Origin: Strigamia acuminata
Lineage: Eukaryota; Arthropoda; Chilopoda; Geophilomorpha; Linotaeniidae
DNA length: 64,000 nt
Assembly: GCA_949358305.1 (NCBI GenBank)
Contig: OX442320.1
Span: 9,688,259-9,752,258 of the forward strand
Direction of reading: 5' to 3'
Part shown: positions 6,519-14,432 of the stretch, piece by piece
How the letters are laid out: each line of letters begins with the position of its first letter
Position numbering within the stretch: position 1 is the stretch's first letter
Translations under genes and position numbers: made by a program
Notes under the pieces: generated by a model
Seen by the model: the letters and a program-made list of their open reading frames with translations, nothing else
Database searches by the model: none
Told to the model about the DNA's origin: nothing

Positions 6519-9500
6519 TTAACGTTCAAGATCTAGGGCGTGGCGAATATCTTCTAACCAGAATTGAATTTTTCTATCATCGTTTCGATCGTACGACTCC
6601 ACATTGAACGGGTTGTCTAAATGGTAGATTTGAATATCATCTCGCTTCGATTTCGGCCATTCCGGCACGTTATTTTCAAGATATTTAGTCGGATGTCTAA
6701 ATAATACATTGAAAATCAGTAAATAATATTAATTATTATTTCTTTTCTTTTACCCAAATTGTGCAAATTTTGTCCACATCTGGAGCATTGTATCTTCAGT
6801 CCGATCCACTTCGGGATTAATCGTACGATCCATAAACAAGAAAAACAAATCGTCTCCATGAGTCGGTTCTAAAACACAAGTTTGTTATTGAAAAGTTGAC
6901 AACATTTTAAGCGCTTTATACTTTGGTTTTTTAAAGGCTTCATTCCAAACAATTGTCCAATGCTCTGATTGGTGACCAAATCGAACGAATACACGAAAGT
7001 GTCTATCCCGTGATCGCTTAAAAACTCAACGGTCTGGATATGCGGTGCCACGAAAATCGAATAACTCAACATCTGAAACACCAATCACCATTTTTGTACA
7101 ATAACTTATAAAATTTGGAAAGAAAAAAAAGATACTTTGATGATGATCTCTTGAATGGCGTCGGAATCATTTGGATCAACCGAGTGGAAATATTCCTTTC
7201 TCAACAGGTCAATTGCGGCTTTCGTGACATTCTCTTCCTTGATGAAAACCATGATTGCAATTAGTTTTCTCAGACCTTCGTCAGTAATTTCAAAGTCTTT
7301 TTCGGCTGCTGTTGCTTGTACTAAAAGAAAAAGCAACTTTTTGCTATTGTAGCCAATATGCTATAATTTTTCAACCCAAAACGAAATTACTTACATAATT
7401 GGAAACTAAAAATTCCTTCCTCTTGCATTACGCCGGTCATCACCGGCACTTTATTCGGAATTGCTCCGTTTTTGAATAAATCGTACGAACTGTTGGGCAG
7501 GAAATGACCGTCCACTACAGGCAGAAATGATGATTCCGTTGAGTTGTCCGAAGACGAACTCGTTTCCAAAGTGAGGGTTTCGGCCGGCATAAGCCGCAAA
7601 CATTGCATCATTTTCTTCTTGTTTTTGGTCGTACATCCGACACTTTCCGCAAATTGTTCGGACTGATGAGCCGCGTCTGTGACTGAGGCCCATGGACATA
7701 GAGGACTTCCGCTTTGAGCAATTACCGAGTGGAAAAGACCTGAGAAGTGAAATAAATACAAATATTTTTCTGTAAACTATAAATGGCGGTTTTGAATGCC
7801 TGCTGAGAGTGGTGAAAGCATGTGGTAAAGAACACTCGCACTTCCGGCGCTTTCTCCGAAAATGTTGACGTTGTTGGGGTTGCCACCGAACGCGCGGATG
7901 TTGGTTTGGACCCATTTAAGCGCTTCTGTTTGGTCCAGTAAGCCGTAGTTGCCCGGAGACTCCTCGTCCATTGTGCTGAGAAAACCTGTGGGAAATTTGT
8001 TTTTATTTTTTTGATTGGTTTGTTTTGGTTTTCGTACCCAAAACGTGTAAGCGATAGTTGATGGTGACTAATACGACGTCGTGGTCGAGTAAACGCCGTG
8101 GTGAGTACATGTCACTTGTACCTGATCCTTCTGTAAAGCCGCCACCGTGCATGAAGACCATTACTGGTTTTTCTTGTTGGGTTTGATTTATCTGAAAAGT
8201 ACAATTTTGCAGCCTTAATGTGGAAACACAAGGGAGTGGGTAAGATTTAAAAGCTTGATTTTACTTGAAAAAGCGGTTAACAACTCGCCTGCTTGAGCAA
8301 ACACAAGCTTGCGTCTGTTGTTGAAGCGAGCTTGTATTCGACCGCTTCGATCAAACTGAGTTTGGTTTACCAGCTTCAAGCTTTCTGGTTTTTTGGTTAT
8401 GTGACTTTGACAGCCAATCAGAATCTTGAGAAAATTCTTGGAAGAGATTTTAGTGGGAATTTCTGGCAGCCAGCTAGTTTGAGTTTGCTAGTTAAGCTGG
8501 TAAGACAAAAGCGGGTCAAGGGTGCTTGTACAAGTAAACGACTCTCTTTAAACTTATGCTAGCAAGCTTTGAAATTTCACCCGCTCCCTTGTGTTTCCAC
8601 CTTCAGTGCTCTTTTAAGCTAAGTACACATGACCTGATTCCGTGCACGGAATGATCACTTTCCGTGTATGGCCGAAAGTTTGGGTCAGTGTAGTACACAT
8701 GGTTCCGCTTACCACACACGGAAACTTTATGGCAACCGAAATTTTATTCTTTCCGGCAGTGATGGTGCACGGAATAGCTTGAATTGTTTCCGTGCACGAA
8801 CAGATTCTGAGTACCCAGAATGCATTGTGGTAATGCGACTGATCGTGACCGGTCGTACACAAGGTGTGGAGGTGAGGTGGATACTGAATACAAAGACAGA
8901 TAATACTAAAAATGTTTGATTAATTTATTTTATTAATTATTATTCATTATTAATTTAAAAATATAGCAATCTATTTATTTTGCGCAATCAAACTCCAACA
9001 TTTTTTAAAAGTGGTCGCCATTTGTATTTACAACACGTGCACGGATTGTGTGTACCAAACAATTTCCGCGCACGGAATGACACAGCCAAACACACAGACG
9101 GAATCATTTCGTTTGCGGCGTGACAACCTGAAATTTCAGACTCTGAATATTCAGATTCTGAAAGTCTCATGTGTACTTAGCTTTACGTGTAAAAGTTGTG
9201 CCTACAAGTGATCATAGTGGGTATAGAGTTACTCACACTCGTCGTATAAACATTTAAGACAAGACAGTCTTCTTTTCCCAGTAACGTCCCCGTCGTTGGA
9301 TCATCCACCTGGAGACATTCAGGTCCCTCTTTGGTCCCATCAAACGGCTTCCTGCTAGCCCTTAATGATTTAGCAACAGGCGGCTATAAAAAATATGAAC
9401 GCCATATGTATTTTTTAGTACAAAGTTGAGAAATATCATACTCTGAAACGAAGCGGTCCAATTGGTGGCTGCGCGTATGGAATTCCACGAAATGCAAAAA

Positions 9501-10017
9501 TCTGAAGGCCATGGTTTCTTGTTTTCATGCTGGAACCACGAATCCGACCACCAGACGGCAATGTAACAATTATTTCGACATCTTTTTGTTTGGGTTTGGG
9601 CTCGACTTCTGTCACATTGTTGAGGCACTTGCAATAGCCGCCTTCTTCAGGGAACCTATCACAGTCCAGGGCAGCTGGCCATTGGATATTGTGTTGAGAG
9701 CAGTCAGTTTTCACTTGTTTACACACAGCTCGACATGGAGGAAAGGGATAAGTGGAATTTGTTGGACACGAAGGAGCGTAGATGGAGCAGAGGAAGAATT
9801 TGAGGTGGACACTGCAGCCAGTGATTGGTGCGTATTGGGACAATTCCTTGGTTGCAACACTTTGATTCTGGGACAACAAGTTTGGCACCATTACCTCGGT
9901 GGAGCTCACGTCAGTGCAGTGATGGAACTCGGTCACTTCTTCACACTTGTGGGAAGATGATGAGGCCACTCGATTTGCAAGGAGAAAAACACTTGAGAGG
10001 AAGAAGAGCCGCAACAT
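6519..10017 (-). CDS. Gene B: secreted Frizzled-CRD carboxylesterase (complete, 678 aa)
   Basis: Exons by transcript order: 10017-9442, 9383-9237, 8191-8038, 7985-7800, 7739-7395, 7320-7136, 7072-6922, 6868-6754 and 6696-6519. They sum to 2037 nt, and all phases agree. Domains: signal peptide (residues 1-19), Frizzled-type CRD with ten or eleven Cys (about 23-135), a short linker [10 protein letters not shown], then a type-B carboxylesterase domain (about 147-660). Catalytic features are the oxyanion HGGG (256-259), nucleophile Ser338 in GESAG, the acid Glu462 in QEEG and His585 in [10 protein letters not shown]. There is no obvious GPI signal or C-terminal membrane segment, so secretion is expected. 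The domain pairing is not one I know as a named family. Substrate is unknown. Wnt lipid or another acylated ligand is an inference from the CRD. Intron 4 has a GC donor. Intron 2 carries two MITEs. Confidence 0.92.
8218..8602. mobile_element. Harbinger-like MITE, copy in gene B intron 2
   Basis: Termini are inverted repeats of more than 25 bases. The left starts ATGTGGAAACACAAGGGAG and the right ends CTCCCTTGTGTTTCCACCT. Flanks are TTA (8215-8217) and TCA (8603-8605). Gene A has the empty site at 5028-5045 (CAGCCTTAGTACTC). A 3-bp TTA duplication fits the PIF/Harbinger superfamily. Confidence 0.85.
8617..9182. mobile_element. Second MITE in gene B intron 2, flanked by TTA
   Basis: Perfect 16-bp inverted termini (AGCTAAGTACACATGA) bound 566 bases that contain many CCGTGCACGGAA-like palindromes. 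TTA lies on both sides (8614-8616 and 9183-9185). Genes A and C lack it at the equivalent position, so it arrived after the B/C split. Confidence 0.85.
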
Positions 10018-13700: not shown

Positions 13701-14432
13701 GAATCTCAATCTATTGAGCGTTGATTTGCACCCCTTGTGCACAGACTCGCATAGGGATTTGCACGGCGGAGTTGGGAGATTTCCAACACCGCATTTTGGA
13801 AAATACACGGAGCAGAGGAAAGGCCTCATATCAGGACTGCACTTCAATGCAGTCAGTGCATTCCATTTACCCATGTGTGCAAGTGCAACCTCTTGATTTG
13901 TGTGGTTGAAAAAATTAGGAACAGCAGTTTGTGTGTAAAACTCTTCACAAATGGAACCATTTGCAATGTCCTGGCACGCATAATCAATTTCTACATCTTT
14001 TTGCTTTGGTTTGGGCTCGATTTCTATCACACTGCTGAGGCACTTGCAATAGCCACCTTCTTCAGGGAACCTGTCACAGTCCAGGGCAGCTGGCCATCGG
14101 ATATTGTGTTGAGTGCAGTCAGTTTTCACTTGTTTGCACAAAGCTCGACATGGAGGAAAGGGGTAATTGGATTTTGTTGGGCATGATGGAGCGTAGATGG
14201 AGCAGAGGAAGAACTTGAGGTGGACACTGCATCCAGTGATTGGTGTGTATTGGGACAATTCTTTGATTGCAACACTTTGATTCTGGGACAATAAGTTTGG
14301 CACCATTACCTTGGTAGAGCTCATATCAGTGCATTGATGGAACTCGGCCATTTCTTCACACTTGTGGGAAGATGATGATGCCACTTGATTTGCAAGGAGA
14401 AAAACACTTGAGAGGAAGAACAGCAGGAACAT
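10731..14432 (-). CDS. Gene C: secreted carboxylesterase with two Frizzled-type CRDs (799 aa)
   Basis: Exons by transcript order: 14432-13628, 13268-13132, 13069-12926, 12385-12232, 12177-11992, 11930-11586, 11527-11343, 11276-11126, 11074-10960 and 10908-10731. They total 2400 nt with consistent phases. Exon 1 holds a signal peptide ([19 protein letters not shown]), CRD1 (about 23-135) and a distinct CRD2 (about 150-255) with the ten-Cys pattern. Exon 2 starts the esterase domain ([15 protein letters not shown]). HGGG, GESAG, the acid in VVQEEG and the catalytic-His region of the esterase fold are all encoded. It is the longest family member and the only one keeping CRD2 and the intron that separates CRD2 from the esterase. 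Intron 5 uses a GC donor. Intron 3 contains a Harbinger-like MITE and intron 1 an AT-rich repeat element. The function is unknown; CRD2 might change ligand affinity. Confidence 0.92.
12488..12881. mobile_element. Harbinger-like MITE, copy in gene C intron 3
   Basis: Inverted termini starting AGGTGGAAACACAAGGGAG extend about 40 bases. The flanks are TTG (12485-12487) and TTA (12882-12884). It occupies the same site as the gene B copy, so both descend from one insertion before duplication. A lone left-end relative lies at about 14805-14860. Confidence 0.85.
13329..13609. repeat. GAAATCT-rich repeat element filling gene C intron 1
   Basis: The intron interior has weak inverted ends, TAGCCAATC on the left and GATTGGCTA on the right. 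It holds a tract (about 13375-13500) of GAAATCTCAT and GAAATCTTT units. It looks like a small mobile element or an expanded satellite inside the intron between CRD2 and the esterase exon. Confidence 0.6.

Follow-up and report, generated by a model that had tools for sequence, protein, structure and literature searches.

A tandem array of genes in the centipede Strigamia acuminata raises the question whether a Frizzled-type cysteine-rich domain (CRD) and a type-B carboxylesterase have truly been joined in one protein, and, if so, what the CRD does for the enzyme. Part of the array lies in a stretch of 64,000 nucleotides (the window; C9:9688259-9752258) of the S. acuminata assembly, whose 237,517,015 bases in 157 contigs were the space of all genome searches. 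The fusion is real. The reading that we prefer, with a probability of about one half, is that of a probably secreted, catalytically competent type-B carboxylesterase family which took on a Frizzled CRD at the N-terminus as a binding module and expanded as a tandem array. The family has so far been seen in one centipede species.

Five genes that join Frizzled domains to an esterase

A whole-genome DNA search with exon 1 of gene B gave six matches, all within an array of 26.4 kb. These represent the genes E, D, A, B and C (the last in two pieces), at 87-95% identity when B itself is excepted, and the same search found no members beyond the five. Their order on the minus strand, on which the five genes and their parts lie, is C, B, A, D, E. 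Genes D and E are full-length copies outside the window, and none of the five copies has a stop or frameshift over the aligned coding sequence. Gene C (10731..14432), hand-spliced from its splice sites and reproduced by our own spliced aligner, encodes 799 residues in an uninterrupted frame of 10 exons (14432-13628, 13268-13132, 13069-12926, 12385-12232, 12177-11992, 11930-11586, 11527-11343, 11276-11126, 11074-10960 and 10908-10731). Gene B (6519..10017), modelled by spliced alignment against C, has 9 exons (10017-9442, 9383-9237, 8191-8038, 7985-7800, 7739-7395, 7320-7136, 7072-6922, 6868-6754 and 6696-6519) that give an uninterrupted frame of 678 residues with a TAA stop. Gene A (1961..5851) has nine exons and was called damaged in the first-pass annotation made from the letters of the window; its frame is in fact unbroken and open throughout to its end at 1961, and only beyond NVESF does a tail of GATTCGG repeats take the place of the last ~23 residues. 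The introns of all five copies are GT-AG, bar one GC-AG intron at the corresponding position in each. Two elements resembling miniature inverted-repeat transposable elements (8214-8606 and 12488-12881) sit in introns of genes B and C, with terminal inverted repeats of 44-47 nucleotides that are 86-91% complementary.

In four of the genes (A, B, D and E) a single exon of 576 bases contains the N-terminus, the first CRD (CRD1), the linker and the start of the esterase. In gene B this is exon 1 (9442..10017), which is open and comprises the hydrophobic N-terminus, CRD1, the linker and the first ~45 esterase residues. With both domains in one exon in four of the five copies, their joining is independent of splicing, and the fusion that was first noticed in the window is confirmed. 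Gene C carries a second CRD (CRD2), separated from the esterase by the phase-1 intron 1 (13269..13627); nothing similar to this intron turned up elsewhere in the array.

The Pfam profiles Fz and COesterase were both found in the two proteins, at 1.4e-17 and 6.8e-136 in B and, with Fz in two stretches, at 5.7e-43 and 4.1e-133 in C. For COesterase (PF00135) the scores are 454.7 bits in B and 445.5 bits in C against a cut-off of 27, over profile positions 4-509 of 515, i.e. a full-length domain above the curated cut-off, which classes both as type-B carboxylesterases. The closest solved structures by sequence are acetylcholinesterases and carboxylesterases (1.9e-72). Aligned to acetylcholinesterase, gene B has HGGG at 256, GESAG at 336 (with Ser338, as had been proposed), the acid-Gly motif at 461 and His585, and in gene C the corresponding motifs stand at 377, 457 (with Ser459), 582 and 706. 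HGGG, GxSxG, the acid and His occur in all five copies, gene D reading GGSAG for GESAG and gene A SHADD at the His. The N-terminal domains passed the cut-off of the Frizzled profile (PF01392) and are assigned to the CRD fold. They are CRD1 of gene B (9643..9945, residues 25-125, a Pfam match), CRD1 of gene C (14040..14360, residues 25-131, a match to the CRD profile) and CRD2 of gene C (13659..13976, residues 153-258, the best Pfam stretch). The eleven cysteines of CRD1 are retained in all five copies. By sequence, the closest solved structure is Frizzled-10 for the B copy of CRD1 (1.5e-21), while Frizzled-7 and -2 are closest to CRD2 (2e-25).

The first residues of B and C are hydrophobic, and their last 150 residues have no strongly hydrophobic segment. 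The signal peptide ascribed to both in the first-pass annotation stands as a judgement from sequence and hydropathy, and the two features together suggest that the predicted proteins would be secreted.

Relatives, selection and age of the fusion

The layout was found nowhere else within a limited set of searches, which rely on shared exact words and cover annotated proteins only. Whole gene C, run against 5.8 billion proteins, had 7987 candidates scored, 6663 of them at E<=0.001, and none of the 120 matches listed combined PF01392 with PF00135. With the two CRDs of gene C as query, 19 of 176 candidates scored; 16 of these list PF01392 alone, three are Frizzleds, and PF00135 is in none of the 19. 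Over both searches, no protein among 138 distinct matches listed has the two domains. The query with CRD1 of gene B scored none of 86 candidates, which is a weak negative since the search needs shared exact words. In the open-licence literature no description of a Frizzled-carboxylesterase fusion was found, many of the papers found being concerned with Notum. The earlier statement that no named family with this architecture was known agrees with both the protein matches listed and this literature. Six of the 16 proteins with PF01392 alone were scanned and have five to nine tandem CRDs each; these six (P0002, P0121, P0128, P0122, P0126 and P0127) come from shrimps, fish and a coral and have no enzyme domain listed. 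Three of them, from Halocaridina (P0002), Penaeus (P0121) and Macrobrachium (P0128), resemble gene C in their tandem Frizzled CRDs.

The esterase itself has clear relatives. Seventeen S. acuminata carboxylesterase pieces were spliced, and 11 entered a tree of 25 rows with a midpoint root only; the tree does not include five short pieces (L014, L026a, L029, L032 and L033) or L035, which has 25% identity. The fused domains form a clade (100/100), joined at 99/99 by the S. acuminata genes L019 and L034 and the S. maritima protein T1IIA8. Seven of the eight gene B introns are at positions present in the L019 gene (C9:9819498-9821561). T1IIA8 is 74% identical to the product of this gene and 42% to the esterase domain of gene B, and is the counterpart of L019 and not of the array; it ranks 38 among the 120 matches listed and is the first below 600 residues. 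Arthropod type-B carboxylesterases such as T1IIA8 thus share with the array the catalytic domain, the clade and, via the S. acuminata counterpart, introns, but have no CRD. Judged by sequence, the esterase of the fusion belongs among centipede carboxylesterases.

A young origin of the fusion was considered and not borne out, as the branch leading to the fused clade measures 0.68, more than the 0.12 + 0.20 that separate the counterpart genes of S. acuminata and S. maritima. The fused esterase lineage therefore probably split from that of L019 and T1IIA8 before the two species diverged, so the fusion may be missing from the S. maritima proteins listed through loss or incomplete annotation. Two further attempts to trace the fusion were given up. 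No CRD donor could be named from a tree of 57 CRDs (54 CRDs plus L001, L005 and L008, with L012 left out), which gave no resolution; its branches were long and the bootstrap had not settled. A route through an ancestral intron in the signal peptide was rejected as well, since the phase-1 introns near residues 18-24 of paralogues proved to be aligner artefacts in L025 and L016, whose signal-like sequence lies inside the same exon.

Both parts of the protein are under purifying selection. The pairwise ratio of nonsynonymous to synonymous divergence (dN/dS) ranges over the ten pairs from 0.18 to 0.56 in CRD1 and from 0.30 to 0.49 in the esterase, and seven of eight Fisher tests (two of the eight on pooled pairs) are below 0.01. 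Synonymous divergence (dS) is mosaic along the genes: in the C-terminal half it is 0.16 for the pairs A-D and B-C and 0.28-0.46 for the other eight pairs. This pattern suggests gene conversion within the array, whose copies are either recent duplicates or have been kept alike by conversion. CRD2 may be a gain of gene C or may have been lost from the other four; the esterase tree groups C with B (89/70), and the synonymous divergence is mosaic.

What the Frizzled domain may do for the enzyme

The acyl groove differs between the two CRDs. In all five genes the groove regions of CRD1 are two and four residues short, at places where the usual length is found in 44 and 43, respectively, of the 54 CRDs in the comparison; 25 sources were scanned for CRDs, and L001, L005, L008 and L012 yielded none and are hence missing from this comparison. 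Of the eight positions that contact the acyl chain in FZD7, four are missing or polar in CRD1, with L134 and M135 missing and H and I at F138 and F140. CRD2 of gene C is FZD7-like, with seven of the eight positions hydrophobic, full-length helices and a groove that is intact by alignment (an AlphaFold model and VIA-align were used), and is the only CRD in the array with a full-length groove. With so short a groove, the four single-CRD proteins are unlikely, on alignment, to bind a Wnt acyl chain in the canonical way, while CRD2 of gene C could hold an acyl chain.

The steps that we infer for a family with a CRD as binding module are simple. The protein would be exported from the cell, the esterase would split an ester by the usual Ser-Glu-His chemistry, as predicted from the motifs, and the CRD would dock the enzyme to a partner or hydrophobic ligand and take no part in catalysis, as in carboxypeptidase Z (CPZ). 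To our knowledge CPZ is the closest layout, and its catalysis is unchanged after removal of the CRD. CPZ is described as a secreted hydrolase that, like the array proteins, carries a Frizzled CRD at its N-terminus, joined by a short linker; in a model of this CRD the acyl cleft is said to be retained, unlike the shortened groove of CRD1 (PMC7698808). The enzymes differ, i.e. an M14 zinc carboxypeptidase in CPZ and a COesterase in the array, and M14 is not among the Pfam matches of B and C (E<=0.001). Corin, a protein with LDL-receptor repeats and a membrane anchor, also differs from the array proteins in its enzyme, a serine protease. It is described as combining two CRDs with an extracellular enzyme, as gene C does (PMC6747125). 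The S. acuminata genome also has separate genes that combine Fz with what looks by eye like an LDLa stretch. With the array, carboxylesterase joins the short list of enzymes partnered with a Frizzled CRD. A natural test of what use a CRD is to an enzyme is offered by the five similar copies, their two CRD states (short and full groove) and the CRD-less relatives.

Several points weigh against the preferred reading. The model of CRD1 on its own has a mean pLDDT of 62, i.e. low confidence. The role of CRD1 might be structural only, and proteolysis could separate the fused parts. As for selection, it indicates function but not which function; the pairwise tests are not independent, as pairs share sequences, and the Fisher test for the CRD1 of D and E is not significant (p 0.23). 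The linker of 16 codons has no clear constraint, with a ratio of 1.38 for B-D and no synonymous change in A-D and B-E.

A possible alternative, and one to be taken seriously, is that these are ordinary secreted carboxylesterases with a digestive, detoxifying or venom and defensive gland role, the CRD being a passenger that serves folding, stability or dimerisation. Tandem duplication with mosaic divergence, as seen in the array, is usual for such enzymes. The nearest relatives are plain centipede carboxylesterases, and the short groove of CRD1 also fits a passenger. Type-B carboxylesterase is reported in centipede venoms, although among the least abundant enzymes there (PMC4379518), and it appears in the abbreviation list of a paper on Lithobius glands (PMC11170834). 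A venom role finds no echo in the main text of a comparative venom paper that includes S. maritima, where 'esterase' occurs once, within the 'phosphodiesterase' of another species (PMC6878950). A mere passenger also sits poorly with the purifying selection on CRD1 and its eleven cysteines kept in every copy.

The first-pass annotation had proposed a CRD-targeted deacylase of Wnt or another acylated protein, in which a lipidated ligand is caught by the CRD and stripped of its acyl group by the esterase. We consider this unlikely for the family. The fusion, the catalytic motifs, the purifying selection and the Frizzled type of the CRDs speak for it, as does the FZD7-like groove of CRD2. Notum, which belongs to what we take to be the PAE family (PF03283) and in which we know of no CRD, differs from the array proteins in its enzyme family, PF03283 being absent among the Pfam matches of B and C at E<=0.001. 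It is nevertheless an extracellular carboxylesterase, described as taking palmitoleate off Wnt, so that this chemistry has a precedent (PMC8172013). Against the proposal, CRD1 is six residues short in its groove regions and is the sole CRD in four of the five proteins. Exons of the PAE family, presumably those of Notum, occur elsewhere in the genome: two places pass the family cut-off, with 31.6 and 28.5 bits, and a third falls short of it. The lack of a fusion among the listed matches from S. maritima and other animals (annotated proteins) ill suits a core Wnt regulator. As for catalysis beside a bound lipid, a chain sunk in the CRD groove would lie outside the esterase pocket, so that it would have to leave the groove and be handed to the enzyme. 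A CRD without a lipid groove had been named beforehand as grounds for dropping the proposal; this applies in part to CRD1 and not to CRD2.

Wnt deacylation is thus possible mainly for gene C, again by alignment. As a long shot, gene C might be a self-targeting deacylase in which CRD1 holds a partner, CRD2 catches the acyl chain of Wnt or another lipidated protein and the esterase removes it. If so, it would be a second, independently evolved route of extracellular ligand deacylation besides Notum, and an enzyme with no kinship to Notum could switch off Wnt-type signals. If there is no deacylation, a signalling-receptor domain has still been reused by a duplicating esterase.

A soluble, sFRP-like decoy, in which the CRD sequesters Wnt or lipid and the esterase is mainly a carrier, is very improbable. 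The tandem proteins of five to nine CRDs with no listed enzyme domain in crustaceans, fish and a coral would be in keeping with it, but all five copies retain the catalytic motifs, and purifying selection acts on the esterase. An artefact of gene models or assembly can hardly be entertained, for although the models were built from sequence alone, five copies have the layout in common, four hold the join within one exon, and the assembly has a reported quality value (QV) of 59.6 (PMC10556566).

Neighbouring features and other loci

A CRD remnant (14980..15285, minus strand) with two in-frame stops (TGA and TAG) lies between gene C and the 3' end of a receptor tyrosine kinase gene, and no esterase match is listed between the remnant and gene C. 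The genome has 21 Fz places, seven of which are in or beside the array, including the two CRDs of gene C and the remnant. The tyrosine kinase exons (15636-20074, minus strand) are accompanied by a transmembrane-like stretch and by an EGF-like match too weak to reach the cut-off, and no Fz place was reported there; a separate gene with Fz and kinase (L012), Ror-like by eye, is on C4.

A second CRD-esterase fusion on C4 (9.727-9.737 Mb), which the aligner had put together from an Fz exon and an esterase, was a candidate that had to be discarded: an LDLa-like stretch (corin-like, by eye) comes after the Fz exon, and the esterase starts with a signal-like sequence of its own. This locus (L016 1912-8708; C4:9.726-9.733 Mb), in which the Fz and LDLa-like gene is directly upstream of the carboxylesterase gene, is a second neighbourhood of a CRD gene and an esterase gene. 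Its carboxylesterase has a hydrophobic C-terminal stretch (by eye).

Frizzled-type CRD copies with an internal stop occur at C13:413463-413651 (C13 being a putative Y chromosome) and at C1:19217954-19218226, the latter grouping with the Frizzled L004 in the CRD tree. Elsewhere in the window, an open frame of 859 residues (61396-63975, minus strand) is rich in His/Asp/Lys repeats and has no Pfam match. Three related open frames on the plus strand (48013-54413) contain units of the type 'GVTYxATPIGxGxYTLTK', repeated in the first; two were scanned with Pfam and gave no convincing family. Five ends of three contigs were also viewed: the C9 start is N, two ends have no telomeric array, and the C1 start and C4 end carry repeats of TTAGG, the arthropod telomere type.

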